Shown: positions 23,197 to 41,968 of the stretch, one piece after another | Layout of the letters: each line of letters opens with the position of its first letter | Position numbering within the stretch: position 1 is the stretch's first letter | Made by a program: the position numbers and the translations under genes | Notes under the pieces: model-generated | Seen by the model: only the letters and a program-made list of their open reading frames with translations | Database searches by the model: none | Told to the model about the DNA's origin: nothing | Source of the DNA: an uncultured bacterium | GTDB lineage: Bacteria > Bacillota > Clostridia > Lachnospirales > Lachnospiraceae | Direction: 5' to 3' | Assembly: GCA_947651225.1 (NCBI GenBank) | Contig: CANSYK010000021.1 | Span: forward strand, 1-49,780 | Length of the DNA stretch: 49,780 bases

Positions 23197-24422
23197 AACT
23201 TTTCCTGGTAATGCACTTGCCTGCGAACACCATCATCCCTGTAATCATAAAAAATAACCCTGTATGGATTATCTGCATCCTCCTTTGTTCTCACAAAATG
23301 TGTATTAAACGTCTTCTCTACCACTTTATCTACAATATCTGCTGCAATCGTTTTTGCAGCATTATTCACATACGTACTGTAACTTCCCCCAAGCTCTGCC
23401 TGTTCTGCAGGCGTCAAAGCATCAAATGCCGCCTCATCCTTCAACCTACCCACAGCCGTAATACAATCTTGCAGATTGATTACTTTGAAATCCGGGGTTC
23501 CGCGCTCCTTACTACGATCTTCATTATAAATTTCCTCTACCCTAATATTGCCTGCTTCAAAACATACTCCCTGTATTCTGTTACAGGTATAACATTCGTA
23601 TCCGATTCCTGTGCCAATTAACTCTCCAATATACTGCAATAAATCCTCTTTGGTCGTCAGATTGGCAATAGCCGAAAAATCTACTGTTGCAGTATAGTTA
23701 TCACTTAATTCAGGTGTCCATTCACCCTTATATATACCATCTGTTGCCGAATTATAATAATCCGGAGGCGGTACTGGTCCATATGAAAAAGGAGGATTTG
23801 CAGGATCTGTGCTGCCTTGGTTAAAAACCGTAAACTCTTTGTCTGTTGTAATCTGTTTATTATTGGCGCTGACATTCGGATTATTTACCGTTAACTGTTT
23901 ATCGTGTGTTGCCCATGCTGGAAATGTTCCCTGTGCATCTACATAATAAGTCTTCATGGAATATTTTGTAGATGGCTCAACTATCTCCGTTGTAACAATC
24001 TCTTTATCTCCCTGCAACACCTTAATTGTATTAAACTCTGTATCTGTTGCTATCCTATCAATCTCCTTTAACAGTTCATCCACTTCCATCTGGATTGCAA
24101 ACCGGTCGTCCTGTGTATTGGTATCATTATAGGATTGAACCGTCAATACCCGAATACGTTGCAAAATTGCTATCTGCTCACCAATGCCTCCTTCAGCTGT
24201 ATTAACCATACTGATTCCATCTGTGACATTTCGTGCACCCTGATTCAATCCACGAATCTGCGCCCTCATTACTTCTGAAATAGCTAAACCTGCAGCATCA
24301 TCTGCAGCACGATTAATTCTATATCCCGTTGAAAGCTTTTCTAACGCTGAAATTTTTGACTTATTGTTGATATTCAACTGACGTCCTGTAAAATTTGCTG
24401 ATAAGTTATGTTGTACAATCAT
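23184..24422 (-). CDS. Flagellin, N-terminal part (frameshifted gene)
   Basis: The conserved D0/D1 start is present: NLSAN, NKSKISALEKLSTGYRIN, DDAAGLAISE and LQRIRVLTVQ. In the last motif the glutamate of the usual TLR5-recognised LQRxREL is valine. A long variable domain follows. After residue 412 the frame meets TGA at 23184, while the neighbouring frame continues into the C-terminal half. One extra A or T in the AAAAGTTTT run at about 23198-23206 would restore a single flagellin of roughly 655 residues. The ATG at 24422 follows a strong CAAGGAGGG site. A sigma-D-type promoter lies upstream. Confidence 0.88.
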   Translation of the reverse strand: MIVQHNLSANFTGRQLNINNKSKISALEKLSTGYRINRAADDAAGLAISEVMRAQIRGLNQGARNVTDGISMVNTAEGGIGEQIAILQRIRVLTVQSYNDTNTQDDRFAIQMEVDELLKEIDRIATDTEFNTIKVLQGDKEIVTTEIVEPSTKYSMKTYYVDAQGTFPAWATHDKQLTVNNPNVSANNKQITTDKEFTVFNQGSTDPANPPFSYGPVPPPDYYNSATDGIYKGEWTPELSDNYTATVDFSAIANLTTKEDLLQYIGELIGTGIGYECYTCNRIQGVCFEAGNIRVEEIYNEDRSKERGTPDFKVINLQDCITAVGRLKDEAAFDALTPAEQAELGGSYSTYVNNAAKTIAADIVDKVVEKTFNTHFVRTKEDADNPYRVIFYDYRDDGVRRQVHYQEKFWKM

Positions 24423-25564: not shown

Positions 25565-27730
25565 ATGAAAGTATTTATTGTAGGAAAATACAATACATTT
25601 ACGAATGCGTTAATCAAAAAGCTTCATAAGGAAAATGACGTTGTCTATGTACTGACCGGAGATAAATATTACGGCAAAAAACCGCATAATGTCTTTGAAC
25701 AGTACACGTTTTCCTATTCCAGTGACAGTATCACGGAAGTTCTGGACAGTGTTCAGCCGGATGTTATATTATTCACCGGAGCATATGATTCCAATTTTCA
25801 GTGGTTTAATATCCGAAATGAGTCTATGCATTATCTTTCCGGTTTAATCAATATTATTCTCTCCGCCGAAAACCATAATGTCAAAAATTTTATTTATCTG
25901 TCTTCCCATCAGGTGTACAACAACCATTCCGAGTCCCTGATTTCAACAGATGCAAAGACAACAGCAAATGACTATATCGGCATTGCAATCGCACAGGGAG
26001 AAGATTTATGCCGGCACTTTACCGAGACAACCGATTTGGATATCCATGTCCTACGTGTTGACAATTTATATAAAACACCAGAAAACCTGGAAGATGCTAC
26101 GGATGTCTGTTCCCGGCTCTGTCTGGAAGCAGCAAAAAAGGGAACGGTTACCATTAATGAAAATCTTACTTTTTCCATGATTAACCTTTCTGATGCTGTT
26201 TTTGGCATTTACGACTTTATCCATGGAAAAGATTTTGAGCATTTTATCTACCACCTTTCTACCAGTGAAGCAATCACCGAACTGGAAATCGCTGAAATCA
26301 TTCGTTCAGTAGACAGTTCTGTCATCATAAAAGACGACACAGTTGGCGGTAAGCAAAAGATTATTCTGGATAAAACAAATTTCCTGAATGAATTTCACTT
26401 AAAAATATTCCACAGCTATGAAAAAACCATTCCGGAAATATATAAATATATCAAACGAAACAAAAAGAAATTCCAGACAACGGCAGAAAGGAAAAAAGTC
26501 AGTGACAATAAATTAATCAATCGTTTAAGAGCGCTGTTTCAGGCAATGCTTCCATTTATTGAGAACTGTATTCTGTTCATCCCGGTTTTTATGATTAACA
26601 ACCGTACCGTTGGAAGCCAATATTTTGAAAAACTGGACTTTTTCCTGTTGTATGTTTTACTTTTTGCTGGTGTCTATGGAACAAAGCAGGCTATTTTTTC
26701 TGCTACGTTAAGTGTAATCGGCTATTTTTTCCGACAGCTCTATAACCGTACCGGAATGGAGGTTTTAATTGACTACAACACTTACCTCTGGATTGCACAG
26801 CTCTTTATTGTCGCAATGTCCGTCGGAAGGCTTCGCGACAGTACAAAGACCATCAGTTATGATAAAGATGAAGAAATCAATTTCCTGAGCAGTCAGTTGG
26901 AGGATTTGGTCGATATCAATGAAAGCAATAACCGCATTAAAAATATTTATCAGAACCGCATCCTGGATTATGATGACAGCCTTGTTAAAATTTACGGTAT
27001 CACCTCTGAACTGGATTCTTTGGAAGCCGGAGCCGTACTCTTCTATGCTGCTGATATTATTGGGCGTATTCTGGGAACAGAAGATGTTGCAATCTATCAA
27101 ATTGCAAATGGAGATTACTGCCGTCTGTTCTCCGCCACTTCCAAACAGGCAAAAAGTCTTGGGAAATCCGTAAAATATTCTGCCATGACAGAAATGATGG
27201 AGGCCATTAATAATAAACAGGTATATATTAACAAAACAATGCATGAGGATTACCCAATGATGGCAAGCGCCATTTACCGCAGCAATGAACCAATTGAGTT
27301 AATTATGCTCTGGGGGCTTCCGTTTGAAAATATGACTGTATATCACTGTAATCTCTTAACTGTATTAGGTTACATGATTTACAACTCCGTAGAACGTGCC
27401 GACCGCTATCTGGATGCTTTATCAAACAGACGCTTTATTGCCGGCACAAGACTTTTGACAAAAGATGCCTTTGAGGAATTACATAATACCTATCAGGATG
27501 CAATGGAAAAAGGATTCACGGAATTTATCATCCTTTCGGCTTCCAGCCGATATGCCATGACTTATGAACAGTGGAGCCAGAAACTTTCTTCCAAACTGCG
27601 TTTTTCCGATTATCTTGGGATTGATAACCAAAACAGAATCTGTATTCTGCTTACCAACTCCAATATCAAGGACGCACAGTTTATTGTACAGCGTTTCGCC
27701 GAAATGGATATCATTTGCACACCAGTCTGA
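25565..27730 (+). CDS. PelD-like c-di-GMP receptor fused to degenerate SDR epimerase
   Basis: The 721 residues hold three parts. Residues 1-300 are an extended-SDR nucleotide-sugar epimerase fold, but the glycine-rich NAD loop is replaced (VGKYNTFT) and the YxxxK lysine is missing (YIGIA at 137-141), so catalysis is doubtful. Residues 325-425 carry about four membrane segments, followed by a coiled coil. Residues 485-610 look like a GAF domain, and 615-721 a degenerate GGDEF: the DALSNRRF start remains and the I-site RFSD (679-682) is kept, but GGDEF is replaced by GIDNQ. This is the PelD plan: a c-di-GMP sensor in the membrane that activates polymerisation. ATG at 25565 after GGAGTGG; first gene of the operon. 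Confidence 0.85.
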   Translation: MKVFIVGKYNTFTNALIKKLHKENDVVYVLTGDKYYGKKPHNVFEQYTFSYSSDSITEVLDSVQPDVILFTGAYDSNFQWFNIRNESMHYLSGLINIILSAENHNVKNFIYLSSHQVYNNHSESLISTDAKTTANDYIGIAIAQGEDLCRHFTETTDLDIHVLRVDNLYKTPENLEDATDVCSRLCLEAAKKGTVTINENLTFSMINLSDAVFGIYDFIHGKDFEHFIYHLSTSEAITELEIAEIIRSVDSSVIIKDDTVGGKQKIILDKTNFLNEFHLKIFHSYEKTIPEIYKYIKRNKKKFQTTAERKKVSDNKLINRLRALFQAMLPFIENCILFIPVFMINNRTVGSQYFEKLDFFLLYVLLFAGVYGTKQAIFSATLSVIGYFFRQLYNRTGMEVLIDYNTYLWIAQLFIVAMSVGRLRDSTKTISYDKDEEINFLSSQLEDLVDINESNNRIKNIYQNRILDYDDSLVKIYGITSELDSLEAGAVLFYAADIIGRILGTEDVAIYQIANGDYCRLFSATSKQAKSLGKSVKYSAMTEMMEAINNKQVYINKTMHEDYPMMASAIYRSNEPIELIMLWGLPFENMTVYHCNLLTVLGYMIYNSVERADRYLDALSNRRFIAGTRLLTKDAFEELHNTYQDAMEKGFTEFIILSASSRYAMTYEQWSQKLSSKLRFSDYLGIDNQNRICILLTNSNIKDAQFIVQRFAEMDIICTPV

Positions 27731-27755
27731 AAAGCAGAAAAAGGAGGGGACTGCC

Positions 27756-28679
27756 ATGACAGTACAGCATAAGATACTTCTTATTCTTCTGATTTTTTTG
27801 GTAAATACTCTGATTGCCGTTGGCTATTTTGTGATTGGATTCATCCGAACCAGAGGCAATAAGGAAAAGAAATGGACAAAATATGTCATTCTTTCCATAT
27901 TTATGTTTCTCTGTCCGGTTACAGGACTGCTCTTTTTAGGACTTGGAACCATTTTATATAAGATATTTTTTGACAGCAGCATTGATTTGGCGGCAATCAC
28001 CTTTTCCAAAGAACGTGTTGATATATTAGAACGCCCTGATATGGAAACAGAAATGAATCTGGTTCCAATGGAAGAAGCTATTATTATTGATGACAAAGAA
28101 AATTTACGGCAGCTTCTTTTAACCGTCCTGCGTGGTGACATTTCCAAATCCATCAACACAGTTACGAAAGCCTTAAACAGCTCTGACTCAGAAGCATCGC
28201 ACTATGCGGCATCTGCGATCATGGATATCATGAATGAATTTCAGACCACCCTGCAGAAATTCCATGCACAGTTAGAAACTGACCCAAACGATAAAGAAGT
28301 CAATCAGCTTTTTATTGAATATCTCATTAAAATGCTTAACACAAACTTCTTATCTGATATGGAATTAAAAACCTACGTTTATTCACTGGTACAGGTCTGC
28401 CAGAATGTATATGAGCACGATAAAAGCAACTTAAAAACATTTTATTACAGCGATGTCATCAATTTACTGGTAAAAATCAGCGATATCCAGGCAGCAAAAC
28501 TTTGGGTTTCCCGCTTACAGGAAGAACATCCTGACGACATCGAAGCATATCGCTGCATTCTCCGCTTTTATTACCTTACCCATGATAAGGAACAATTTTT
28601 CCATTACATGGACCGCCTGAAAAGATCTGATATTGCAATTGACAAAGACCTGCTGGAATTAATTCGTATCTATAGCTAA
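27756..28679 (+). CDS. PelE-like membrane-anchored TPR-type protein
   Basis: The 307-residue protein has two N-terminal membrane segments (about 5-27 and 45-68) and a helical cytoplasmic part rich in paired helices typical of TPR folds (DSEASHYAASAIMDIMNEF; AKLWVSRLQEEHPDDIEAYRCIL). In Pel systems PelE has membrane segments plus TPRs and bridges PelD to PelF/PelG. The ATG at 27756 follows GGAGGGG, 25 bp after the PelD-like gene. Sequence similarity to PelE is weak; the assignment rests mainly on layout and position. Confidence 0.75.
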   Translation: MTVQHKILLILLIFLVNTLIAVGYFVIGFIRTRGNKEKKWTKYVILSIFMFLCPVTGLLFLGLGTILYKIFFDSSIDLAAITFSKERVDILERPDMETEMNLVPMEEAIIIDDKENLRQLLLTVLRGDISKSINTVTKALNSSDSEASHYAASAIMDIMNEFQTTLQKFHAQLETDPNDKEVNQLFIEYLIKMLNTNFLSDMELKTYVYSLVQVCQNVYEHDKSNLKTFYYSDVINLLVKISDIQAAKLWVSRLQEEHPDDIEAYRCILRFYYLTHDKEQFFHYMDRLKRSDIAIDKDLLELIRIYS

Positions 28680-28699
28680 AAACTGTTCAAAAATAACTT

Positions 28700-28736
28700 T
28701 TATAGTAAACGCATAAAATACATGCGTTTACTATAA
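28700..28736. repeat. Perfect palindromic repeat, copy 2 (inverse of 65-103)
   Basis: A 15-bp stem TTATAGTAAACGCAT pairs with 28722-28736 around the loop AAAATAC, the reverse complement of the loop at 81-87. It lies 20 bp after the PelE-like stop and is followed by a T-rich stretch, so it could act as a terminator inside the operon. Confidence 0.8.
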
Positions 28737-28743
28737 TATTTCT

Positions 28744-28909
28744 CTAGTGCGTGTTTGAAAATTGCTTTTTGCAAGATGTGCTTCTCACTTTGTGGGAGAT
28801 TTGGCTCAAATTTAGGAGGTGTAGCGGGCTGCATCGACTAAATTTGAGCCAAATATAGCGCAAAGCATAGAGTGCAGATTGTGAGAATGAATTTCCAAAC
28901 ACGCTCTAG
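28744..28909. mobile_element. Complete 166-bp MITE-like palindromic element inside the Pel-like operon
   Basis: The ends are CTAGTGCGTGTTTG and, inverted, CTAGAGCGTGTTTGG. A second inverted pair inside (TTTGGCTCAAATTTAG and CTAAATTTGAGCCAAA) makes one long hairpin. It has no coding capacity. The left 80 bp recur at 40133-40214 and the right end at 42548-42567. A degenerate relative lies at 14817-14990. Size, inverted ends and dispersal fit a non-autonomous mobile element. Confidence 0.7.
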
Positions 28910-28979
28910 CACAAAAAAAGACCAGGTTAAGAAAAGAATTGATATTAAACAAAAAATGCAAAAGAAAGGAGCAAAAATC

Positions 28980-31436
28980 ATGTCTATGGAAGTCAGAACA
29001 ATAATAGAGTTTATACAGGCGCTGACAGCTTATACTGTCTGTGTTTGTCTTGTACCCTATATTGTCTTTCATGACTTTTTACATGAAAAATGCCTTTCTG
29101 AAAAGTTTATTACGGCTATTTTGATTGGGAATTTTTATATTATCAATGTTGTCTTTGTAATCTTTCTGCTTAAGATTCCTGGCAGAATCAGCCTGTACGT
29201 TTTCACCATTGTCCCGGCCGTTATTGCCTGGATACGGATTAACCGTCCAGATATTGGGGGATTTTTCTCCCTGCTGCATAACCCTCTATCCCGGCTTTTT
29301 TTAGGAGAAGCTCATTTCAGGACAATTTTAGATGCTTTATTTTCACGTCCAATAGAGATATTTCGCAACAGCCTTCGTAATGTGTTCTCCCATATACGGA
29401 AACACATTTTTGAATGGACTTTATTATTGGGACTGATTGCCTTTAATATCTACTATTATGGCTATCAGACTACTACAAGCTATATTTTTGGCGCTAGTGA
29501 CCTTACAGTACATCAGTTCTGGATTAACGAAATGGACAATGGTATCATTTTCCAAAATGGTATCTATCCTTTTGGGTTCCACAATGTTATCTGGTTCCTG
29601 CACAATTTTTTCGGCATGCGTACCCTTTCGATTCTGCGCGTATTTGGTGTTGTAGAAACACTGTTTATCTATATGATGATTTATGTATTTCTGCGCAAAA
29701 TCTGCCGTTCCCGGTATCTGCCGATTCTGGGTGTCTTTTTATTCACCCTGCCGGACCTTTTCGACTTTCAGGCAACAATGCGCTATCAGTGGTCACTCCC
29801 ACAGGAATTCGGAATGATTTTCCTCTATCCCTGCGCCTATTATCTCATCCAGTTTTTTGAACGTAAAAAAGATGAAATTCAGACCCGGCAAAAACTGGCA
29901 CAGGAAAACAGGCTTTATGCCTGGCTGTTTCAGTACCATATTATGCCAAGCACCAAAAGCCTTGCCTTTTTTGCCATAAGCTTTTCGCTTACACTGGCAG
30001 CCCACTTTTATATTACAATCATTGCGGTTGTACTATGTGTTACTATTGCTATTGCTTATTTCCCCATTGTTTTCCACCCAAAATATTTTTGGTCCATTGT
30101 ACTTGCGGGTATTATTAGCCTAAGCTGTGCAGTTGCTCCATTGGGGATTGCCTATATGCAGGGAACCAGGCTTGAAGGTTCCCTAAAGTGGGCACTCAGT
30201 GTTATCTTTCCAAAAGAGGAACAGGATCCTGCCAATACAATAGAAGAAAACCCTGGTACATTTGATAACCTTGAAAATTCAAATTATACAGAAGAAACTG
30301 ACGGAGAAGGAAATTCTATCAATATCGAGGACGAAAATACAAGCGGCATCTCTAACAGCAAAGGAAGTACCGTTGACAGCCAAAATAATGTTACTAAAAA
30401 AGACTCTGTTGAAAACAAAACTTCCATGCTGGATACCTTAAAAGCATTGCCTGCGAAAATCCCTTCCTTGGCAAAAAGGGCGAAAGAAAAACTTATTATA
30501 TTTAACAGGCTTGCAAGCGCTTATCTTAATGGCGCTTATAATTATAACATACTGTGCTTTTATATCTTAGGCGCAACCGAGATTCTTGCCGTTTTTTGCT
30601 TGCTGATGATGGTGATTCGACGAAATTTTTATTATCGCAATCTATTTGCCATCAGCATATATTCCATGTTCTTAATGATTATGTACAGTGCACAGGCATT
30701 AGGACTTCCGGTCATTATGGATCTTGCCCGTTCCAGAATCTTCCTTGCCTATGCCACCCCACTGCTTATTGCCTGTCTTGCTGATGCTGTTTATGTTTTT
30801 TTATGTTGGCCATTCAAATACCATAAAATTACAGAAATTGTCCCGATAGGACTGATACTGCTACTTACATGCCTGACACTGATAAATGATTTTATAAAAC
30901 CACTCAATATTGTTTATTCTCTTCAGCTTCCTGGAGAAATGAAATGCAATTATGAGATTATGGATACCTGTCCAGAAAAAAGATGGACTGTTGTAACAAC
31001 AACAAATAGTATGCAGACACTTCGAGAAAAAGGCTGGCATATGGAAGTCTGTACTTTTTTAGGGAAAATGGAGAACTACACAAAATATACTAATGTAACC
31101 ATTCCGACAAAATATGTTTTCTTTTATATAGAAAAAACACCTCTTGACTTTGGTTATGATGCATACAATTTAGTTACTGAAGAAATGGCAAACAGTGGTC
31201 TTGTTTCAGAAAGCGCAGCTGCCCAACAGGCTGAATTTGGCGGGTCCTCTGTTTATTATACAGAAAACCGTTACATATTGGAAAGCAAACTATATTACTG
31301 GGCAAAAGCATTTCAGGAAAAGTTCCCAAAGGAATTCCAGGTTTATTATGAGGACGAATCCTTTATCTGCTACCGAATTATTCAAAATGAATACAATTTA
31401 TACAATTTTGCTATTGATTATGGCTTTAATGGATAG
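28980..31436 (+). CDS. Large GT-C-like polytopic membrane protein
   Basis: About 818 residues with roughly 12-14 membrane segments. The first large outward loop has ASDLTVHQFW (172-181) followed by GIYPFGFHNVIWFL, resembling the Asp-containing first loop of GT-C membrane glycosyltransferases. A charged, Asn/Glu/Ser-rich loop (about 412-490) interrupts the segments, and the last 130 residues form a soluble outer domain. The ATG at 28980 follows AAAGGAG; an open frame reaches further upstream into the MITE but carries no family sequence. It has no counterpart in the Gram-negative pel operon and could be a transferase or polymerase subunit. The family is not recognised with certainty. Confidence 0.65.
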   Translation: MSMEVRTIIEFIQALTAYTVCVCLVPYIVFHDFLHEKCLSEKFITAILIGNFYIINVVFVIFLLKIPGRISLYVFTIVPAVIAWIRINRPDIGGFFSLLHNPLSRLFLGEAHFRTILDALFSRPIEIFRNSLRNVFSHIRKHIFEWTLLLGLIAFNIYYYGYQTTTSYIFGASDLTVHQFWINEMDNGIIFQNGIYPFGFHNVIWFLHNFFGMRTLSILRVFGVVETLFIYMMIYVFLRKICRSRYLPILGVFLFTLPDLFDFQATMRYQWSLPQEFGMIFLYPCAYYLIQFFERKKDEIQTRQKLAQENRLYAWLFQYHIMPSTKSLAFFAISFSLTLAAHFYITIIAVVLCVTIAIAYFPIVFHPKYFWSIVLAGIISLSCAVAPLGIAYMQGTRLEGSLKWALSVIFPKEEQDPANTIEENPGTFDNLENSNYTEETDGEGNSINIEDENTSGISNSKGSTVDSQNNVTKKDSVENKTSMLDTLKALPAKIPSLAKRAKEKLIIFNRLASAYLNGAYNYNILCFYILGATEILAVFCLLMMVIRRNFYYRNLFAISIYSMFLMIMYSAQALGLPVIMDLARSRIFLAYATPLLIACLADAVYVFLCWPFKYHKITEIVPIGLILLLTCLTLINDFIKPLNIVYSLQLPGEMKCNYEIMDTCPEKRWTVVTTTNSMQTLREKGWHMEVCTFLGKMENYTKYTNVTIPTKYVFFYIEKTPLDFGYDAYNLVTEEMANSGLVSESAAAQQAEFGGSSVYYTENRYILESKLYYWAKAFQEKFPKEFQVYYEDESFICYRIIQNEYNLYNFAIDYGFNG

Positions 31437-31447
31437 GAGGGGTTTTT

Positions 31448-33250
31448 GTGAAAATTTCAAAATCAGCTTTTGTTACAATGTCTGTTACAATGATCGCAAT
31501 ACTGGTACTATTCCAGTTTTCCAACATATCGGCTATTTATGCGTCACAGGCTATGAAAAATGCAAATGCAGAACAAGATATTACTATTACATCCAATAAA
31601 ACAATACAAGCTTCCAAGCTGCATTCACCTTCTACCTATGAAACGGCATTAATAGGTGGAAAAAACAACTGGGAAACAATGATTGCGGAAGAATGGTGTA
31701 TTTATACCAAGCAACGTTACTATCGCTTTCCTTCTCTTCGCGACTTATATGAGAACATCTCACAAAACTGCAAACTTTTAATTGTCAATGCTTATGTAAT
31801 TGACTCAACTGAGGATATTAATATTCTGATAAGCCTTGCAAAAAGAGGAGTCAGCATTATTCTGACCAGCCTGCCGGATATATCACTGTTCCGCTCCTAC
31901 CCAAAACTTATGGAGCTTACCGGGGTACGCAAAATTGAGGCAGATTCTTACTACACAAATGGCATGACAGTTTTTGAAGGATTCTTGTTGGGAGGTAAAG
32001 CAACATATAATGACATGAAAAAAAGCATTCCTTACTTTAGCCTGGAGTCTGGTACAAAGACTTACATTTCTGCCGCAATAAAAAACCAGGAACAAAAAAA
32101 TATTAAAAATGAGGAATTACCGCCTATCCTTTGGAGAAATTACTATGGAAATGCTTTTATCTTCTGTGTAAATTATGACTTTTTCCAAGACCATACCGGA
32201 CTTGGAATGCTCACCGCTATGATATCCGAAACAACCGGCTATAACCTTTACCCTATTGTTGATTCACAAATTGTAATCTGCCAGAACTTTCCTTACCTTT
32301 CCAATGAAAATTCCTCCAGAATTTCACGGCAGTATTTCTACACCAGTAAGGCATTTTGTGAAAATGTACTCTGGCCAGATATTGTATCAATCTTAAGCGC
32401 AACAGGGGATAAATTCAGCGGTATGATTGCGCCAAAGCTTGAATACAGCGATTCCGAAGATGTCAGTCTGGACTCGCTCAAGTTTTATTTTAAGCAGACG
32501 GAAAGAATCTCTGGGGAACTTGGCATTTCCGGGGATCAAATGGAAAGCATTTCCTTCCATGATGAAAAAATTTTATATGACACAGAAAAGTTCAAACAAC
32601 TTGCCCCTGATTATGACTTTACTGTATTTTCACCAGGTAACATGCCGGAATCGGAATACGACTACTATCTGAATTATTTTGGGAATGAATCTGTTTTATC
32701 AAATATACGCACTCTTGTTCTTCCAAAAGAGCAGGAACATAAAGCGATTCTTTCCTTCTATAATACAAAAATAATGTCTCTTGCCTGCACCAATAATGGA
32801 TTTTCCCATGCGGACAAAGAAGATCTATATTTGCGCAGTATAGAAACAGCTCTTGGCTATTCCGCTGTTTCTCTTGACTTTTCCCGTGTTATCTATCCAA
32901 ATGGCAAAGCAGACGACTGGACAACTTTATCCAGAGATATGGCACGTTTTTTAGATACCTACTGGAAAAACTTCCGAAAGGCTTTTAAGCAAGTTAATAT
33001 TTCCGAAGCCGATCAGAGAGCACGAAAGTTTTTCGCCCTGTATTATAACTATTATCGGCGCAACGATACGATCAGCCTGTCTATTACCAATTTTGAGGAC
33101 GAAGCTTCCTTTCTGTTGGATCTGGCTGACGAAAAAGTGGTTTCTGTTTCTGGCGGAACTTTCACAAAAGCAGAAAAAGATAAATATGTGATTCACGCTG
33201 ATTCAAAAACGGTATTAATTGAAGTAGCAGAAGACCTTAGTGAAAATTAA
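31448..33250 (+). CDS. DUF2194-like secreted/anchored polysaccharide-modifying protein
   Basis: Of 600 residues, the first 30 form an N-terminal signal or membrane anchor (VTMIAILVLFQF). The following domain resembles a glutamine-amidotransferase-like/beta-galactosidase trimerisation fold (LLIVNAYVID...RGVSIILTSLPD), and the C-terminal half a polysaccharide-deacetylase-like domain (ILSATGDKFSG...EISLDFSRVIYP-type motifs). DUF2194 proteins occupy the place of PelA in several Gram-positive clusters; I recall this rather than check it. GTG start at 31448 after GGAGGGG, 11 bp after the GT-C-like gene. Classical His-x-x-x-His metal motifs are not evident. Confidence 0.6.
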   Translation: MKISKSAFVTMSVTMIAILVLFQFSNISAIYASQAMKNANAEQDITITSNKTIQASKLHSPSTYETALIGGKNNWETMIAEEWCIYTKQRYYRFPSLRDLYENISQNCKLLIVNAYVIDSTEDINILISLAKRGVSIILTSLPDISLFRSYPKLMELTGVRKIEADSYYTNGMTVFEGFLLGGKATYNDMKKSIPYFSLESGTKTYISAAIKNQEQKNIKNEELPPILWRNYYGNAFIFCVNYDFFQDHTGLGMLTAMISETTGYNLYPIVDSQIVICQNFPYLSNENSSRISRQYFYTSKAFCENVLWPDIVSILSATGDKFSGMIAPKLEYSDSEDVSLDSLKFYFKQTERISGELGISGDQMESISFHDEKILYDTEKFKQLAPDYDFTVFSPGNMPESEYDYYLNYFGNESVLSNIRTLVLPKEQEHKAILSFYNTKIMSLACTNNGFSHADKEDLYLRSIETALGYSAVSLDFSRVIYPNGKADDWTTLSRDMARFLDTYWKNFRKAFKQVNISEADQRARKFFALYYNYYRRNDTISLSITNFEDEASFLLDLADEKVVSVSGGTFTKAEKDKYVIHADSKTVLIEVAEDLSEN

Positions 33251-33293
33251 CGATATCTCCGGACTGATACAACACCGGAAAAAAGGAGAGACT

Positions 33294-34760
33294 ATGAAAG
33301 TGTGTATTATTGTCGAGGGCTGCTATCCCTATGTAGTAGGCGGTGTATCCAGTTGGGTACACAGTCTGATTAAGCAATTTCCCAATGTGGAATTTATGAT
33401 ACAGACAATCGCTGCTGACCGGAGCATCCGTGGCAAATTTGTTTATGAAATGCCGGATAATGTTTCTGAAATCCGTGAAGCCTATGTCCAGGATGTAGAC
33501 TGGGTTGGAAAAAAGAAACGCCGCAAAAAACTTCATCTGGGCAAAAAGGAATTTGAAGCTTTACAGAGCCTTATATTAAATGAAGATATTGACTGGAAAG
33601 GCGTCTTTGATTTTTTTAACAAGGAACAGTTTTCCCTCAATGACCTTTTAATGGGAAAAGATTTCTTTTTGATGGGAAAAGCACTATATGAAAAACGTTA
33701 TGAAAATATTACCTTTTCCGATTTTCTCTGGTCGCTGCGCTCCATGTACCTGCCACTGTTTCTCTGCCTGAAAAATCCGCTTCCAAAGGCAGATTTATAT
33801 CACTGTGTTGCAACCGGCTACGCCGGAATGATGGGCAGTATGGCAAAAATTTTATATGAAAGCCCTCTTTTAATTTCGGAGCATGGAATTTATTCCCGTG
33901 AGCGTGAAGAAGATATTATTAAAGCAACCTGGGTAGAAGGCGTTTACAAAAACGTCTGGATTGAACATTTTAAAAAGATGTCCACCTGTACATACAATAC
34001 GGCCGATTGTGTAACTTCGCTTTTTGAATATGCACACCAGCTTCAGGTAGAACTTGGCTGTCCAGAAGAAAAAGCAATCATTACGCCAAATGGTATCGAT
34101 CCAAAACGCTTTGAAAACATTCCTGGCAAAAAGGAAGAAGACAACGGCTATTTTAATATTGGGGCAGTTTTGCGTATTGCTCCGATTAAAGATGTTAAAA
34201 CCTTAATCAACGCATTTTATTATGCCAAACAGAGAGAACCTTCCTTAAAACTCTGGATTATGGGTCCCTGGGAAGAAGAAGATACCTACGCAAAAGAAGT
34301 CTTTGCCCTGGTCGATTCCCTAAAACCACAGGATTTGGTTTTTACCGGAAGAATTGATGTATCCCAGTATCTTGGACGAATGGATGCGACCATCCTTTCC
34401 AGTATCAGTGAAGGGCAGCCGCTTACAATTCTGGAAGGTTTCGCTGCAAAATGCCCTGCCATTGCAACCAATGTTGGAAACTGCGAGGGATTAATTTATG
34501 GGGAAGGTGATGACACACTCGGTCATGCAGGTATTGTAACTGACACCATGTCTGTTGCCGGGCTTGCAGATGCCATGGTACAGATGGCTCGCAATCCTGA
34601 ACGTTCCAGGCAGATGGGCATCATTGGATATAACCGCCTTATGAGCAAATACCAGCTTTCCCAAATGAAGGAGACCTATTATAACCTTTATCGGAAAATG
34701 GCCCAAATCAGCGGATGTGAATGGGATGAAACGCCTTTTAAACGGGCAGACAGGAGGTAA
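33294..34760 (+). CDS. pelF: Pel polysaccharide glycosyltransferase PelF (GT4)
   Basis: The 488-residue cytosolic enzyme starts VCIIVEGCYPYVVGGVSSW, the PelF-type GT4 donor/acceptor loop. The middle has SEHGIYSREREEDI, highly characteristic of PelF. The C-terminal Rossmann half has the UDP-sugar site around SEGQPLTILEGFA and EGLIYGEG. PelF uses UDP-GalNAc/GlcNAc to make Pel in Gram-negatives. The ATG at 33294 follows AAGGAGAG. It is followed six bases later by pelG, as in known pel operons. Confidence 0.93.
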   Translation: MKVCIIVEGCYPYVVGGVSSWVHSLIKQFPNVEFMIQTIAADRSIRGKFVYEMPDNVSEIREAYVQDVDWVGKKKRRKKLHLGKKEFEALQSLILNEDIDWKGVFDFFNKEQFSLNDLLMGKDFFLMGKALYEKRYENITFSDFLWSLRSMYLPLFLCLKNPLPKADLYHCVATGYAGMMGSMAKILYESPLLISEHGIYSREREEDIIKATWVEGVYKNVWIEHFKKMSTCTYNTADCVTSLFEYAHQLQVELGCPEEKAIITPNGIDPKRFENIPGKKEEDNGYFNIGAVLRIAPIKDVKTLINAFYYAKQREPSLKLWIMGPWEEEDTYAKEVFALVDSLKPQDLVFTGRIDVSQYLGRMDATILSSISEGQPLTILEGFAAKCPAIATNVGNCEGLIYGEGDDTLGHAGIVTDTMSVAGLADAMVQMARNPERSRQMGIIGYNRLMSKYQLSQMKETYYNLYRKMAQISGCEWDETPFKRADRR

Positions 34761-34766
34761 CAGATT

Positions 34767-36248
34767 ATGGCAAGTCTTGGAAAAACCATAAAAAAATCAT
34801 TTGAGAAGAAAACAATATCTTCTACTCTGTTTGGAATGTTTGCCAGCACACTCACTACAATTGCGCCTATGCTCCTGATTATGGGCGGTATCATTGTGCT
34901 ATATAATGTACTGGATTACAATTCCGTTATTTATGCAGACCGTTTGCTCTTTACCAGCAGTATCCTGTACATTTTTATCTTTGGACTGATTTCTACTGCA
35001 CCTTTTAATACGGTTCTTTCACGTTATATTACTGACCGTATTTTTGAAGAAGACTATGATGCGATTCTGCCATGCTTTTTTGGAGGGCTGTTTTTAAACC
35101 TGACCGTCAGCAGTTTAATTGGAATTCCATTTTACCTGTATTCCTACTTTGTTGGCGGAATTGACCCTTTATATACCTTTACCTGCTATTTCGCATATAT
35201 AGCGCTTTGCCTGACTTTTTACTCCATGCTCTACCTGTCGATTACAAAGGATTATTTAAAGATTTCCCTCTTTTTCTTCTCTGGAGTAGTAGTTATGGTA
35301 CTCAGCGCACTACTGGCTGTAAAAGTATTTCACGCTACTGTAGTTTATGGCATGCTGCTTTCCATTGGCTGCGGATTTTTAACCATCGCAATCTGTGAAT
35401 GTGGATATATCAGAGTATATTTCCCCCGGAATAATCAGAATTATTTCGGATTTATGCAATATTTTAAAGAACACTGGCAGTTAAGTATTACCAATCTGTT
35501 CTACTTTCTCGCCATGTATTCCCATAACTTTGTCTTTTGGACTATGCCGGACCGGTTGGTGGTAAAAGATACTTATATCTGCTACCCGCCTTATGATATG
35601 GCGACCTGTCTTGCGATGTTTACCAATATTTCGGCAAGTGTTATTTTAATCACGCAGATTGAACTTCATTTCCATGAACGGTATAAAGCTTATTCCGAAG
35701 CCGTAATCGGCGGACGGATGCGTGATATTGAAAAATCAAAAAACCGTATGTTTTCACTACTCTCCCATCAGCTTATGGATGTTGTGAGAAACCAGTTTAC
35801 GATTAGCGTTATTGTTTACCTGCTCTGTGTCGTATTGCTGCCACGGTTTGGGTTTGCCGGACAGACCATGGAAATTTATCCCTGCCTTGCAGCGGGCTAT
35901 TTTGTAATATTTTTACTATATTCCTGCATTATTTATTTGTTTTACTTTAATGATAAAGTAGGCGCACTTTTAACGACCTTTACCTTTTTGGTAATCACTG
36001 CAACAGTCAGTTTCTTTGCCCGTGACTTTCAGCCAATCTGGTATGGAATCGGAACATTTGCCGGATCTTTTTCCGGTTGGATTGTTGCCTATTTCCGACT
36101 CCGATGGGTGGAACGAAATCTGGATGAACATATTTTCTGCCGTGGGGTATTGATTCCATCTCAATACGAAGCGATGCCGACAAATATTGTGTTTCCAGTT
36201 GATAGCACAAAACAGGAGGAAGAAGAAAAGGAGGAACAAACACCATGA
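34767..36248 (+). CDS. pelG: Pel polysaccharide membrane transporter PelG
   Basis: The 493-residue protein has about 12 hydrophobic helices and begins with a short amphipathic stretch, then LTTIAPMLLIMGG. It includes FWTMPDRLVVKDTYICYPPYDMAT-like motifs (split: TMPDRLVVKDTYI, PPYDMATCLAMF), typical of PelG. PelG is the inner-membrane channel for the growing chain. Position directly after pelF, with a 6-bp gap, supports the call. The end overlaps the next gene by 4 bp (ATGA). Confidence 0.93.
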   Translation: MASLGKTIKKSFEKKTISSTLFGMFASTLTTIAPMLLIMGGIIVLYNVLDYNSVIYADRLLFTSSILYIFIFGLISTAPFNTVLSRYITDRIFEEDYDAILPCFFGGLFLNLTVSSLIGIPFYLYSYFVGGIDPLYTFTCYFAYIALCLTFYSMLYLSITKDYLKISLFFFSGVVVMVLSALLAVKVFHATVVYGMLLSIGCGFLTIAICECGYIRVYFPRNNQNYFGFMQYFKEHWQLSITNLFYFLAMYSHNFVFWTMPDRLVVKDTYICYPPYDMATCLAMFTNISASVILITQIELHFHERYKAYSEAVIGGRMRDIEKSKNRMFSLLSHQLMDVVRNQFTISVIVYLLCVVLLPRFGFAGQTMEIYPCLAAGYFVIFLLYSCIIYLFYFNDKVGALLTTFTFLVITATVSFFARDFQPIWYGIGTFAGSFSGWIVAYFRLRWVERNLDEHIFCRGVLIPSQYEAMPTNIVFPVDSTKQEEEEKEEQTP

Positions 36249-36643
36249 CACTTCCCTTGCAACTGATCATTATCGCCTTAGGAATCCTTTTACTGGGAAT
36301 TATCATTATTGCCGCAATTGAAAAGAAAATTTCCGAATCCCATGCACTGCTTTGGATTCTTCCATGCATTTTAATCATTATTGGCGGTATTTTCCCTCAA
36401 CTTACTTATGGTTTATCTGACTTTTTCCATACAGGTTACCCGCCTGCAATTGTCTTTGCACTGGCAATTATCATCAGTTATCTGATTTTATTTCAGAGCT
36501 TTAAGTCACTTTCTGTCCTGACTATTAAAAATAAAGAGCTTGCTTCCCAGGTTGCCCTGCTGAACCAGCAAGTTGCACAGCTTGAAGAAACGGTAAACAG
36601 TCTGCTGGCAGAATCAGAGGAAAAGAAAGAGCATTCAAAGTAA
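36245..36643 (+). CDS. DUF2304-like small membrane protein
   Basis: 132 residues with three membrane segments (about 5-25, 34-54, 65-85) and a C-terminal coiled coil (LASQVALLNQQVAQLEETVNSLL). This matches DUF2304, a family usually found next to polyprenyl-phosphate GT2 enzymes in polysaccharide clusters; such a GT2 lies two genes downstream. It probably anchors or regulates a transferase. ATG overlaps the pelG stop. Confidence 0.75.
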   Translation: MTLPLQLIIIALGILLLGIIIIAAIEKKISESHALLWILPCILIIIGGIFPQLTYGLSDFFHTGYPPAIVFALAIIISYLILFQSFKSLSVLTIKNKELASQVALLNQQVAQLEETVNSLLAESEEKKEHSK

Positions 36644-36660
36644 AGGACGAAGGAGTCGAG

Positions 36661-37887
36661 ATGAAAAAAATTTTGTTTGTAATGAATACTATGGGGCGTG
36701 CCGGAGCCGAACGTGCTTTAATCGCTCTGATGAATACACTTCCTAAAGATCAATATGAGATTTCACTTCTGGTCTTAATCAACCGGGGAGAGGTTTTTGC
36801 AGAGGTTCCAAAACATGTCAAAATATTGAACAAACATCCTGATATACGCTCTGTCCTCTCTTCCGGCGGCAAAACCGTTTTAATGAAAACAACACTTCGC
36901 TGCTTTTTTTATCACTTAAGCGGCTTTAGAAACATACCATACCTTTTTCGAAACTTGCTTTTGCAACTAAAAAAACACAGACTGCAGCCGGATAAGCTTT
37001 TATGGCGGATTATTGCTAACGGAACGCCTGCCCCAAAGGAAACCTATGACCTTGCCGTTGCTTATTTAGAAGGAGGGAGTACCTATTTTACAGCAGACTT
37101 TGTGCATGCTAAAAAAAAGGCTTCTTTTGTCCATATTGACTACAAAAAAGCAGGCTATTGCAAATCACTTGATCTGGATGCCTACGATAAAATAGACCGT
37201 ATTTTTTCTGTTTCCAAAGAGGCAATGGAAAGTTTTTGCCGTGTTTATCCAAACCACCGGAAAAATTGTTTTCTATTCCGCAACATTATTGATACCAACT
37301 GGATTAAAAAACAGAGCCAAAAGCAACTCCCTGCTTCGGACCCCTTTTTTAAAAGCCAGGCCGAATTTAAGCTTTTGACGGTTGGGCGTTTAAACTACCA
37401 GAAAGCATATGATATTGCAATCCCAACACTGCGTCTGCTCCGGGAACAAGGTTTTGATGCAGACTGGTTCGTGTTGGGAGAAGGCGATTTGCAACATGAT
37501 TTACAGCGTATGATCGCTAAGGAAAATTTGACGAAACATTTTATTTTACTCGGCAGTACAGCAAATCCTTATCCTTATTACCGCCATGCCACCTTATATG
37601 TCCATGCTACCCGCTTTGAAGGAAAAAGCATCGCTATTGAGGAGGCGCAGGTTCTTGGTAAGGCAATTGTCGCTTCTGACTGCACGGGAAACCGTGAACA
37701 AATTAAGCACAATATATCCGGTTACCTTACGCCCCTGTCTGCCAAGGCAATCGCAGACCATATTGCCGATTTACTGAAACATCCTCAAAAAAGAGAACAA
37801 TTTGAAAAAGCAAGCGCTTCCATTGACTTAGCGCACAGAGAAGATTTTGCACCCTTTTTTGAATTATTAAATGGAGATTTTGTATGA
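36661..37887 (+). CDS. Family 4 glycosyltransferase
   Basis: 408 residues with a GT-B fold. The N-terminus FVMNTMGRAGAERALIAL is the GT4 glycine loop, and TVGRLNYQKAYDIA starts the nucleotide-sugar half, followed by the EX7E-like ARFEGKSIAIEEAQ. It is cytosolic. It is probably an extra transferase that decorates or primes the polymer; the donor is unknown. ATG at 36661 after GGACGAAGGAG, 17 bp after the DUF2304 gene. Confidence 0.9.
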   Translation: MKKILFVMNTMGRAGAERALIALMNTLPKDQYEISLLVLINRGEVFAEVPKHVKILNKHPDIRSVLSSGGKTVLMKTTLRCFFYHLSGFRNIPYLFRNLLLQLKKHRLQPDKLLWRIIANGTPAPKETYDLAVAYLEGGSTYFTADFVHAKKKASFVHIDYKKAGYCKSLDLDAYDKIDRIFSVSKEAMESFCRVYPNHRKNCFLFRNIIDTNWIKKQSQKQLPASDPFFKSQAEFKLLTVGRLNYQKAYDIAIPTLRLLREQGFDADWFVLGEGDLQHDLQRMIAKENLTKHFILLGSTANPYPYYRHATLYVHATRFEGKSIAIEEAQVLGKAIVASDCTGNREQIKHNISGYLTPLSAKAIADHIADLLKHPQKREQFEKASASIDLAHREDFAPFFELLNGDFV

Positions 37888-38663
37888 AAAGAAATGAATT
37901 ATTAATTATTATCCCAGCCTATAATGAAGAAGAATCCATCGGGAAATTCCTGTCCCTTCTGGTTTCCTCAGATGTGATAAATTTTGCTGATATGCTTATA
38001 ATCAATGATGCTTCTACTGACGCCACATTAAACATTGTCAAAAAAATGAACATTCCTGTCATCAGCCATCCCTATAACCTTGGTTATGGCACAGCACTTC
38101 AGACAGGATATAAATATGCTGTTTCCAACCATTATAAATATCTGATTCAAATGGACAGCGATGGACAACACGACATCTGCAACATACAAAAAATTTACAG
38201 TTGCCTGCAAAGCCGTGAAACTCCTGACCTTGTGATTGGTTCCCGCTTTTTAAAGGAAAGCAGAACCTTTCCCATTTCGTTGAAAAAAAGACTGGCAATC
38301 CACTTCTTTCGAAAAGCAATTAAACTTGCCAGCAAACAGGAAATCAGCGATCCAACCTCTGGCCTTCAGGGACTTACTTACCCTGTTTTTGAATATTATG
38401 CACAAATGGGAAATTTCGACAACAATTATCCTGACGCCAATATGCTTGTCCAGATGGCACTTCTTGGCTACCAGATTCGGGAAATTCCTGCTGTCATGCA
38501 CCAGCGGAAAGCAGGAAAAAGCATGCATTTTGGAATAATAGAACCCCTTCTTTATATGTGCATCATGTTCTTTAGTACCTGCAATGTATTTGTCCGCAGC
38601 AAAAAGAATATGCTTACAAAACCAATTTCTGATAAAGGTGGAACTTATTTTGAAGAAAACTAG
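37884..38663 (+). CDS. Family 2 glycosyltransferase (DPM/polyprenyl-phosphate type)
   Basis: The 259-residue GT-A enzyme has IIPAYNEEESIG at the start, NDASTD, and the metal-binding QMDSDGQHD. That pattern is typical of dolichyl/undecaprenyl-phosphate sugar transferases. No membrane segments are present, so the DUF2304 protein may be its anchor. Its ATG overlaps the stop of the GT4 gene (ATGA). It may make lipid-linked sugar for the GT-C-like protein, which uses such donors; this is inference. Confidence 0.9.
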   Translation: MKRNELLIIIPAYNEEESIGKFLSLLVSSDVINFADMLIINDASTDATLNIVKKMNIPVISHPYNLGYGTALQTGYKYAVSNHYKYLIQMDSDGQHDICNIQKIYSCLQSRETPDLVIGSRFLKESRTFPISLKKRLAIHFFRKAIKLASKQEISDPTSGLQGLTYPVFEYYAQMGNFDNNYPDANMLVQMALLGYQIREIPAVMHQRKAGKSMHFGIIEPLLYMCIMFFSTCNVFVRSKKNMLTKPISDKGGTYFEEN

Positions 38664-40122
38664 AAAAAACATTATTATTTACATATTAAGCTTAATCTTA
38701 CTATTTGCAGGAGGAGGAGCTGCCGTGCATTATTATCAAATTCACAGTGTATCGGTTGTTTTTTTACCACAGGAGCAAAATGAAATCACAGGAATGTTAA
38801 ACCGTCCGGGTTGCGGCTGGTATCAGCTCTATGCGTATTACCTTACCCCAGAGGCTTCCCTCTCAACAGACAAACTATATATTTCTGAGGAGAAGGATGG
38901 CTATACCTTTCGCCTTGCCCTCTTAGAATTCAACCTTGCAGAATACAACCATCAAAAATTGGATACTGCTGCCCTAAACAATATCGAAAAAGTCCTGCAG
39001 CTCTTTTCCAACACAAAGTCTAAGGTTATCGTCCGTTTCCTTTACGACTGGGATGGACTTGCAATGCAAAAAGAACCGGCAGAACGTTCCATCATTGAAC
39101 AACATATGAAACAGGCAGGAAAAATATTAAATAAGTATAAGAGCCTGATTTATACCACACAGGGAATCTTTGTCGGAAACTGGGCAGAAATGCATAATTC
39201 AAACTACCTGTCTGCAGAAGATATGACAGCCTTGCTTGCCTGCTATGCCAGCGCCACCGACCCTTCCATTTACCTTGCAGTGCGCACTCCGGCACAATAC
39301 CGGGCAATTGTACAAGAACTGGAAGAACACCCTGAGAAATACGATGAGTATGATGTTTCTGGCAGTAAACTTCTGGAGCGCCTGGGACTTTTTAATGATG
39401 GCATGCTAGGTTCCATCTCTGATACCGGAACCTACCGTGAAGCAGATGCTGCTGTCACGCTAAATGATAAGCTTGCCGCCCGGGAAACTGAACTAAACTT
39501 CCAAAATGAACTGTGCCGGACTGTCCCAAATGGTGGAGAGGTTGTTATTGATAATCCTTACAATGATGGAGAAAATGCCATAAAAGATCTGGCAAAAATG
39601 CATGTGTCCTATTTAAACCGAATATATGATGAAGCTGTTATCCAAAAATGGAAGGAAAGCACGTATACCGGTTCCGAAAGCCTGTATCAGGATCAGTCTT
39701 ATTATAATTATATCACAGATCATATGGGCGCACGGTATGTTTTAAAAGACTTTTCCTTCTCCCACAGTCCATCAAAAAAACAGTTGGCAAAAGGCAGACT
39801 GGAGTTTGAAAACAAAGGTTTTTCGGCTCTTTACCAGAAAGCTGCATTAACCATTACCATGATCAACACAGAAACAAAAGAAGAAACAATTGTCTGGGAT
39901 TCAGAAACAGAAAAAGAAGGAGAAGACGCTGTCTTTTTGCCAGGCCAGGAAAGCATCTCTATCCCCTTTTCTATTTCGCTGTCTGATTATGAAGAAGGGG
40001 TATATACCTTTACAGCCCAACTAACTGACAGCGAAAGCGGTGAACTTATTTCGTTTGCAAATGACAGCTTTAATGAAGTAACAGGCGGATATGTGCTGGG
40101 AACAGTTTCTATTTCTAAATAA
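38650..40122 (+). CDS. DUF4832/DUF4874-type TIM-barrel protein, anchored
   Basis: About 490 residues. The N-terminus has a membrane anchor (IIIYILSLILLFAGGGAAV), then a glycoside-hydrolase-like barrel beginning NRPGCGWYQLYAY, with RFLYDW (about 129-134) and GNWAEMHNS (Glu near 180) at barrel-strand ends where catalytic acids sit. A beta-sandwich follows. DUF4874+DUF4832 families are putative glycosidases. It might replace the PelA hydrolase domain. The start is uncertain: TTG at 38650 after AAAGGTGG, or GTG at 38638. It overlaps the GT2 gene end and is last in the operon. Confidence 0.7.
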   Translation: MKKTRKNIIIYILSLILLFAGGGAAVHYYQIHSVSVVFLPQEQNEITGMLNRPGCGWYQLYAYYLTPEASLSTDKLYISEEKDGYTFRLALLEFNLAEYNHQKLDTAALNNIEKVLQLFSNTKSKVIVRFLYDWDGLAMQKEPAERSIIEQHMKQAGKILNKYKSLIYTTQGIFVGNWAEMHNSNYLSAEDMTALLACYASATDPSIYLAVRTPAQYRAIVQELEEHPEKYDEYDVSGSKLLERLGLFNDGMLGSISDTGTYREADAAVTLNDKLAARETELNFQNELCRTVPNGGEVVIDNPYNDGENAIKDLAKMHVSYLNRIYDEAVIQKWKESTYTGSESLYQDQSYYNYITDHMGARYVLKDFSFSHSPSKKQLAKGRLEFENKGFSALYQKAALTITMINTETKEETIVWDSETEKEGEDAVFLPGQESISIPFSISLSDYEEGVYTFTAQLTDSESGELISFANDSFNEVTGGYVLGTVSISK

Positions 40123-40132
40123 ATTTTTTCTC

Positions 40133-40214
40133 CTAGAGCGTGTTTGAAAATTGCTTTTTACAAGATGTACTTTACACTTTGTGGGAGATTTGGCTCAAAT
40201 TTAGGAGGTGTAGC
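40133..40214. mobile_element. Left half of the MITE-like element (composite left end)
   Basis: CTAGAGCGTGTTTGAAAATTGC and about 60 further bases match 28744-28825 with few changes and stop abruptly at GGTGTAGC, where the ATPase gene begins. The matching right end is 2.35 kb away at 42548-42567. Confidence 0.75.
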
Positions 40215-40215
40215 A

Positions 40216-41907
40216 TCAGCCAATTAATACATGTTTCCCTTCAAATGCAAAACCATATTTTCTAATGCGGTCAGCAGGAATTCCTTTTGCCTCTATAGCT
40301 GCCGCATATCCTTTTTCCTCTATCTGCAAAAGCGCTGCCTGAACGGTTTCTTCTAAGCCTTTCTCTCTCTGAGGACGTTGAACTTTAAACTCCACAATAA
40401 TAGTATCATCCTTTTCATTCCCCTTTAACGGTTCCAGCATAACATCATAACGCCCAAAGCCGCTTTCCCTGTTGGAAGTAATCGTATATCTGTCTGATAA
40501 GTCTACCATCAGCCCCAAAACGAATCCATGGTAAAAGCGTTCTGGCTGTGATTTTTCAGACGGTCTTTTTCCTGTATCAAAGTTGCTGAAAGTATCAAAC
40601 GCCACACGGTTCATGTATTCATTCATTGCATCAATATCTCCTTCTAACAACGCCTTAATAAAATCATTATATGCCGGTGAATACTGTTTAAACCAGCCCT
40701 CAATCATATTTTCAAACATGATTTTCGTTTCCTTATTCGTAATCTTTAAATCATATTCTTTTTTTCCTGTATTATCATTAATTGAATAACTTTCCACCCT
40801 TACATACCCACTGGCAAGAAGCAGACTCCATATTGCATATTCATTGTGGTCAAGCTGGTTAAATACAATCTGTTCATCAATTCTTGTATGATATACTTCT
40901 CCCTTTAACAGGTTTTCCATAATCAGCTTTACATCTTTGCTTCCCTCTTGTATCAGTTTCCCTACAAGACTATTACTGCTGGTATTTGCCCAATAAGTCC
41001 CCAATTTTTTTTCATCCAAAAAATTTATAATAGACCACGGATTATAAATATCTGTACTTTTTCCGAAAGTAAATCCATCATACCAGGATTTAACATCTGA
41101 TTCCTTATCAGACATCCCAAATTCTGCCAGGGCATCAGATACCTCTTTCTGGGTAAATCCAAACATATCAGAATATTTATCAGAAGTGGTGGTCACCACA
41201 GTTAAATTATTCAAGTCTGAAAAAATGGACTCCTTGCTGACCCATGTAATCCCCGTCATCATTGCTCTGTCTAAAAAAGGATTTGTTTTAAAAGTAGAAT
41301 TAAACAGATTTCTGATAAATTCTACAATCTCACTCCAATATCCATACACATATGCTTCCTGCATTGGCGTGTCATACTCATCAAGAAATATAAGCGGCTT
41401 CCTGCCATAATAACGCCCCAGATAATCAGTAAGTGCCCTGATGGAATCTGAAGCAATATAGTTTTCCATCTCTGGAGAAATTTTGTGAAATAACTCTTTT
41501 TCAGCCGGATTCAAATAATCGCCTTCCAGTAAAAAATCACATTTATTATATAATTTTTGAATATTGCGGCAAATTGCTTTTCTTGCCAAGGGAAAGGTCG
41601 TTTCTTTTATATCAGCAAAACTCATGGCTATAACCGGGTATTTTCCCTGCATGTCCCGATATTTTTCCTCTTTCCAAATCTTCATTCCCTCAAACAAATC
41701 ACTCCGGTCTGCATAGTTAACAGAAAAAAACTGTTCCAGCATACTTAAATTAAGCGTTTTTCCAAACCTCCTTGGACGGGCAATCAACGTCACTTCATCG
41801 TCATTTTCCCACCACTCTTTGATAAAAAGTGTTTTGTCAATATAAAAGTTATGATTTACCACGACTTTTTCATAACTCTGTTTTCCGATTCCAACTGTTC
41901 TAGCCAT
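40216..41907 (-). CDS. AAA-ATPase-like / PD-(D/E)XK nuclease protein
   Basis: 563 residues. The N-terminal AAA-ATPase-like domain (PF09820 type) has NHNFYIDKT, the Walker A-like RPRRFGKT (44-51) and FLDEYDTPM (Walker B). The C-terminal PDDEXK_9 nuclease (PF08011 type) has GRYDVML and IIVEFKV. These abundant clostridial proteins behave as mobile or selfish genes or defence-related nucleases; function unproven. ATG at 41907 after AGGAG. The gene ends one base from the MITE half, yet the C-terminus ([10 protein letters not shown]) looks complete. Confidence 0.88.
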
Positions 41908-41968
41908 ATGCCACATCTCCTCCATCTCCGTTTTATTTATACTAACACAAATGCAGGCAACTATGCAA

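Follow-up and report, generated by a model that had tools for sequence, protein, structure and literature searches.

The pel operon of Bacillus cereus ATCC 10987, pelDEADAFG, encodes PelD, PelE, the PelA deacetylase-domain homologue PelADA, PelF and PelG (PMC7112168, PMC13254593). The fusion of a short-chain dehydrogenase/reductase (SDR) domain to PelD has already been described, and Whitfield et al. reported a set of CotH, polyphosphate polymerase and DUF4956 genes in 2020 (PMC7112168). The same account places the pel genes of Roseburia in a larger capsule- or teichoic acid-like cluster, for which the legend of S7 lists GT1, GT2, PTase and NTase, and it leaves open whether the polymer is Pel (PMC7112168). 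Pel is cationic owing to its deacetylation (PMC9030451); no Pel is detectable in Pseudomonas aeruginosa or B. cereus without PelA deacetylase activity, and it has been suggested that a failure of deacetylation signals synthesis to stop (PMC13254593). The locus studied here is a pel operon carried by contig CANSYK010000021.1 (assembly GCA_947651225.1) of an uncultured Lachnospiraceae bacterium; the window is the whole stretch of DNA that was analysed, 49,780 nucleotides. This operon belongs to a conserved type, called type B below, in which the synthase core is kept, the PelADA homologue has lost its deacetylase active site and a membrane glycosyltransferase with a GT-C fold is encoded between PelE and PelADA.

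Ten collinear and intact open reading frames (ORFs), all on the plus strand, occupy positions 25565-40122 (gene order in Table 1). PelF, the synthase, matches NCBIfam NF038011 with 338.3 bits (cut-off 100; runner-up family 85.2 bits) and the exporter PelG matches PF16933 with 454.2 bits (cut-off 29), scores far above those of rival families, which bears out the PelF and PelG calls of an earlier sequence-only reading of the window. The PelD-like and PelE-like calls of that reading also hold. As in Gram-positive pel operons, PelE lies next to PelD; it has no library family and was recognized by its position and by an iterated profile search, which found 52 such ORFs in 61 loci, usually adjoining PelD. 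Besides its SDR part, PelD has a putative cyclic di-GMP (c-di-GMP) binding site, an RxxD motif (R679/D682) predicted near the C-terminus and also found in PelD of other loci. Among PelD proteins of at least 600 residues, the motif occurs in 104 of 106 from type B, in 13 of 13 from type A, in the single hybrid and in all six from loci of neither type; the genome of the window has nine GGDEF matches. The aligned SDR motif YxxxK is absent from all 106 type-B PelD proteins and present in only one of 126 overall (L128, type A, another family), which agrees with published work that regards the clostridial domain as inactive.

Two types of pel loci can be distinguished. In type A, pelD-E-DA-F-G is followed by genes for CotH, a VTC-domain polyphosphate polymerase and DUF4956 (Pfam check made on locus L072), while type B, which includes the window, has the GT-C gene with DUF2304, GT4, GT2 and DUF4832 genes; the PelF core is common to both. 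The loci compared comprise 47 stretches around matches in 250 Lachnospiraceae genomes, the window's own genome counted, 13 from the window's genus, in which 13 of the 24 further genomes contain PelG, and 11 from the phylum, where 398 genomes were searched (17 matched, 13 of them above the cut-off; both counts include the window's genome). These 11 comprise all the others above the cut-off but one; ten of them belong to other families and one, L135, to the window's family. PelG was matched in 43 of the 250 family genomes (42 over the cut-off), the GT-C gene in 27 and both in 25; this co-occurrence (Fisher p 1e-20, which ignores kinship) rules out a chance co-location. The 43 PelG-bearing family loci are 23 of type B, 14 of type A, one of both (L072) and five of neither. 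Four of these five end at contig ends, L066 upstream, with DUF2304-GT4-GT2-DUF4832 visible, and L082, L096 and L099 downstream, and the fifth, L075, is a remnant that keeps PelE and PelG only.

Neither the window operon nor any examined type-B locus other than the hybrid L072 contains the CotH, polyphosphate polymerase and DUF4956 genes; L072 combines them with a PelG of the type-B clade, a dead deacetylase and a 3'-end GT-C gene. In a PelG tree (67 rows, quick method), a single change accounts for the rows labelled A or B; on the B side stand 40 rows from the window's family (36 of type B, one hybrid, three of neither) together with L136, a long-branched row from another family. The type-B gene set thus marks one PelG clade, apparently of Lachnospiraceae. 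A wider scan with the GT-C alignment, covering 84,980 species with one genome apiece, gave 123 confirmed loci, of which 80 were kept, partly overlapping with the earlier ones. By their titles, the hosts are Lachnospiraceae or other Clostridia-type bacteria, unnamed bacteria and one metagenome bin titled Bacteroides. Type-B hosts include Blautia luti, Ruminococcus turbiniformis, Anaerobutyricum hallii DSM 3353, Roseburia porci (L167), Hominisplanchenecus faecis and Lachnoclostridium sp. An169. PelE directly precedes the GT-C gene in 75 of the 80 loci and the PelADA homologue directly follows it in 73, these loci having been found through the GT-C gene itself. Among the 58 with at least 9 kb downstream, the complete order of ten genes seen in the window recurs in 43, and the CotH, polyphosphate polymerase and DUF4956 genes are absent from all. 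The sequence-only reading had proposed a clostridial pel variant with additional enzymes and conserved neighbours, which this clade-wide gene set supports; it did not notice that the deacetylase is dead or that a CotH-type set exists as an alternative.

Some other observations concern particular loci. L087 and L172 (Hominisplanchenecus faecis) have a truncated PelF and no labelled PelG, and apparently represent a decayed type-B locus. In nine type-B loci (L063, L065, L068, L069, L070, L074, L089, L090 and L124), pelD is immediately preceded by a small gene of one sequence cluster, which belongs to Pfam PqqD in the two copies scanned. Two loci at contig ends that fall on the type-A side of the PelG tree contain a degenerate PelADA copy (Asp-Gly, YGYNQ), which follows an intact copy in L096 (6824-10616) and a partial one in L082 (3-2754).

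The DUF2194 protein (PF09960, 67.5 bits) occupies the position of PelADA in Gram-positive pel operons. It has none of the six catalytic residues of B. cereus PelADA and lacks the Asp-Asp, HxxxH, Arg and His motifs of family CE26. In the same way, at most one of the six residues is found in each of the 109 type-B copies (93 distinct sequences when the last 350 residues are compared), whereas all six are kept in 13 of 13 type-A copies. Furthermore, no His stands at an invariant or at least 90% conserved column among 47 members, and an alignment-free check ruled out an alignment artefact. The type-B PelADA homologue has therefore lost the deacetylase active site. Its deacetylase fold is kept, as a fold search matches Agd3 and PelA. 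A weak profile match (E 0.002) was also obtained with PDB 9zau, which is not among the fold-search rows listed and is presumably B. cereus PelADA, although its entry is named only "Predicted membrane protein, putative". Position, Pfam family and this profile match rule out the earlier view of the DUF2194 protein as an added enzyme.

The GT-C protein has 854 residues, its start at 28980 being supported by a likely ribosome-binding site and by the alignment of 52 homologues. Searches of its sequence against Pfam, NCBIfam, PHROGs and PDB gave nothing useful. Its fold is visible only in the structure model (predicted local distance difference test score, pLDDT, 86.4), which agrees with the earlier call of a GT-C-like membrane protein and would supply the GT-C transferase of a GacIJKL-type set. 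D210 and other residues (numbered from 28872) are invariant in 40 of 40 homologues. The gene has repeatedly been moved or exchanged without being lost. No prior account of a GT-C gene in pel loci or of an inactive PelADA appears in the titles and abstracts of the open-licence PubMed Central (PMC) matches listed.

The genes downstream of pelG resemble parts of a known side-chain system. GacJ-like proteins of the DUF2304 type help GacI to form N-acetylglucosamine (GlcNAc)-P-undecaprenol, and GacL, a GT-C enzyme, puts GlcNAc on the backbone (PMC8327497, PMC8035078); in lactococci, WpsA and WpsB load GlcNAc and WpsC extends it (PMC10821137). In the window, the GacJ-like protein is the DUF2304 protein (PF10066, 81.2 bits), a family matched by 22 of 25 aligned members. 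The GT2 protein (PF00535, 72.1 bits) has PpgS as its best NCBIfam family by E-value, like all 24 members, with 79.5 bits for a cut-off of 370; its top PDB match is a dolichol-P-mannose synthase and no transmembrane segment is apparent by eye. A GT4 protein (PF00534, 93.8 bits) lies between them. It is thus most likely, by analogy, that the added enzymes modify the polymer, as had been suggested before; the accompanying idea of a lipid-primed chain fares less well, the combination of GT2, DUF2304 and GT-C resembling lipid carriage of side chains and not a chain primer. The last gene encodes a putative hydrolase with DUF4832 (PF16116, 166.5 bits) and DUF4874 (PF16173, 163.5 bits), in which E202 and E319 are unchanged across all 127 sequences; at a guess, these could be the catalytic pair. 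It had also been taken for an addition, and is instead an accessory already described in clostridia and streptococci: its streptococcal relative SIR_1591 disperses Pel aggregates in Streptococcus intermedius (PMC12345266).

Taken together, these data suggest a reading that we consider evenly balanced, in which Pel stays mostly acetylated and gains lipid-carried side-chain sugars outside the membrane through the GT-C enzyme. PelD, PelE, PelF and PelG, gated by c-di-GMP, would make and export an alpha-1,4-N-acetylgalactosamine-type chain. The PelADA homologue, still folded, would no longer deacetylate it and would probably remain next to PelG to bind the chain and act as a scaffolding pseudoenzyme. 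Instead of this deacetylation, GT2 and its DUF2304 partner would load a sugar onto undecaprenyl phosphate, GT4 would probably extend it, an unlinked flippase would turn the lipid-linked sugar over and the GT-C enzyme would then transfer it to the emerging chain. The mostly acetylated, side-chain-bearing product could be trimmed by the DUF4832 hydrolase. More tentatively, and less likely than not, type B could represent a separate class of the Pel lineage in gut Lachnospiraceae, neutral, fully acetylated and side-chained, where GT-C glycosylation replaces deacetylation as the maturation required for export. If so, exchange of the GT-C gene would alter the side chain between species in a serotype-like manner.

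Several points weigh against this side-chain reading. A deacetylase-dead operon might make no Pel, since P. aeruginosa and B. cereus need the activity. Co-transcription of pelDE with the GT-C gene is unproven because a repeat-bearing gap of 192 bp (300 bp to the likely start) separates them in the window, against 9-96 bp in seven relatives of the genus. No flippase gene is found in the window operon and a Wzx-like gene in only 11 of the 58 loci, while two GtrA genes lie elsewhere in the window's genome, away from the operon. The substrates of GT2 and GT4 are not assignable, as both proteins are far below the curated NCBIfam cut-offs, and the partner genes are partly absent from the 23 type-B family loci (DUF2304 in 20, GT4 in 18, GT2 in 22). 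Relatives of the GT-C gene are, moreover, present in L085 and L088, which are not pel loci. Lastly, L072 breaks a strict exclusivity of the two types, and the association has few independent replicates because the switch between them is a single change in the tree.

Foremost among the alternatives, though unlikely, is that the GT-C module attaches or caps Pel without decorating it, for example by linking the chain to a lipid or wall acceptor, giving a cell-anchored capsule. This would fit the capsule- or teichoic acid-like surroundings reported for Roseburia (PMC7112168), where R. porci has a type-B locus, as well as the NTP_transf_5- and Stealth-type genes seen near some loci. However, DUF2304, GT2 and GT-C form a known side-chain set and no other transferase is found in the ten conserved genes, the flanking unlabelled ORFs having mostly not been scanned for ligases. 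Ranking just below, and unlikely as well, is an ordinary Pel, deacetylated by the divergent PelADA through other residues or by another deacetylase of the genome. The kept fold and the purifying selection on the gene would agree with it; the absence of an Asp-His-His metal site and of any conserved His argues against it, and no second DUF2194 gene was found in the genome, where unrelated deacetylases were not searched for. It is improbable that the module glycosylates a protein or another wall polymer and is merely co-transcribed with pel. GT-C enzymes use many acceptors and the relatives in L085 and L088 lie in non-pel clusters, but the GT-C gene is nearly always flanked by those for PelE and the PelADA homologue, and the two GT-C genomes without PelG are a cut contig with PelD, PelE and PelADA (G001) and a decayed pel locus (G027). 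A decaying operon without product, which the repeat element and hairpin within it and decayed relatives (L075, L087) might evoke, is very improbable given ten intact ORFs and nonsynonymous to synonymous substitution ratios (dN/dS) of 0.04-0.14 in nine of ten genes relative to L114 (dS 1.2 to 2.8; DUF2304 not computable; many genes saturated, without value, against three further relatives).

Table 1. Features of the operon. Coordinates of PelE, the GT-C protein and PelF begin at the likely starts as corrected (27756, 28980 and 33294).
Feature	Position	Strand	Evidence
PelD: N-terminal extended SDR, membrane helices, GAF-like part, degenerate GGDEF with RxxD	25565..27730	+	PF01370 Epimerase, SDR profile
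PelE-like membrane protein	27756..28679	+	position, iterated profile
15-bp perfect inverted repeat just 3' of pelE	28700..28736		
Short inverted-repeat element, resembling a miniature inverted-repeat transposable element, between pelE and the GT-C gene	28744..28909		ends CTAGAGCGTGTTTGAAAATTGC-like
GT-C-fold membrane glycosyltransferase (ORF from 28872)	28980..31436	+	structure model, invariant residues
DUF2194, PelADA homologue, deacetylase active site lost	31448..33250	+	PF09960, fold, residue comparison
PelF, GT4 synthase (ORF from 33240)	33294..34760	+	NF038011
PelG exporter	34767..36248	+	PF16933
DUF2304, GacJ/WpsB-like small membrane protein	36245..36643	+	PF10066
GT4 glycosyltransferase; top NCBIfam match PglJ, below cut-off	36661..37887	+	library scans
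GT2, polyprenyl-phosphate-sugar-synthase-like	37884..38663	+	PF00535, NCBIfam PpgS, PDB match
DUF4874-DUF4832 putative glycoside hydrolase (likely start about 38638)	38584..40122	+	PF16173, PF16116

The end motif of the short element has 210 matches in the genome (88 forward, 122 reverse, at most 3 mismatches) and none for the reversed control. Similar CTAGAGCGTGTTTGAAAATTGC-like ends also flank an AAA-ATPase_like/PDDEXK_9 gene and a DUF3783 gene just downstream of the operon (40133-42567). On the minus strand upstream, a gene that looks flagellin-like by eye (22450-24422) is apparently split into two overlapping frames, N-terminal (23184-24422) and C-terminal (22450-23196), which may reflect a frameshift, an assembly error or decay. 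Two near-identical adjacent minus-strand ORFs (19506-20351 and 20489-21331; 281 and 280 residues) are presumably Rpn-transposase-like. No Rfam family reaches its gathering score anywhere in the window. Between 24300 and 40500, terminator-like sites are at chance level (14 for 13.6 expected); promoter-like sites (65 for 46.3, standard deviation 7.4) were not used for any inference.

Compared with known systems, the window shares with B. cereus ATCC 10987 the order of PelD, PelE, PelADA homologue, PelF and PelG and the RxxD motif (PMC7112168, PMC13254593), and differs by the SDR domain on PelD, the GT-C protein between PelE and PelADA, the lost PelADA site and the downstream DUF2304-GT4-GT2-DUF4832 genes. 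With the CotH-type operons of clostridia and streptococci (PMC7112168, PMC12345266) it has in common an SDR-PelD with altered catalytic residues and DUF4832; in contrast, it lacks CotH, VTC and DUF4956, possesses GT-C, DUF2304, GT4 and GT2, and does not keep the deacetylase residues that the examined type-A copies retain. The DUF2194 protein resembles Agd3 (CE18) and PelA (CE21) by fold search and PelADA (CE26) by position and the weak 9zau profile match, without the catalytic Asp and His of these enzymes. The likeness to GacI, GacJ, GacK and GacL and to the lactococcal WpsA, WpsB, WpsC and WpsJ, set by gene types and not by direct sequence comparison with those proteins, lies in the set of GT2, DUF2304 and GT-C, with an additional glycosyltransferase as for WpsC; the acceptor would here be Pel and not a rhamnan, and the operon has no flippase.

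A further comparison concerns Roseburia. The parts compared of the text describing its pel cluster (PMC7112168) mention neither a dead deacetylase nor a GT-C protein; as Roseburia porci has a type-B locus, type B is probably what Whitfield et al. met in this genus, and the present data define that exception more closely. Type B moreover predicts a surface glycan in a common gut family, one without characterisation among the open-licence PMC matches listed. Since published Pel needs deacetylation, the type-B clade tests this rule, and its conserved operons offer a natural experiment on whether deacetylation is required and on what can replace it.

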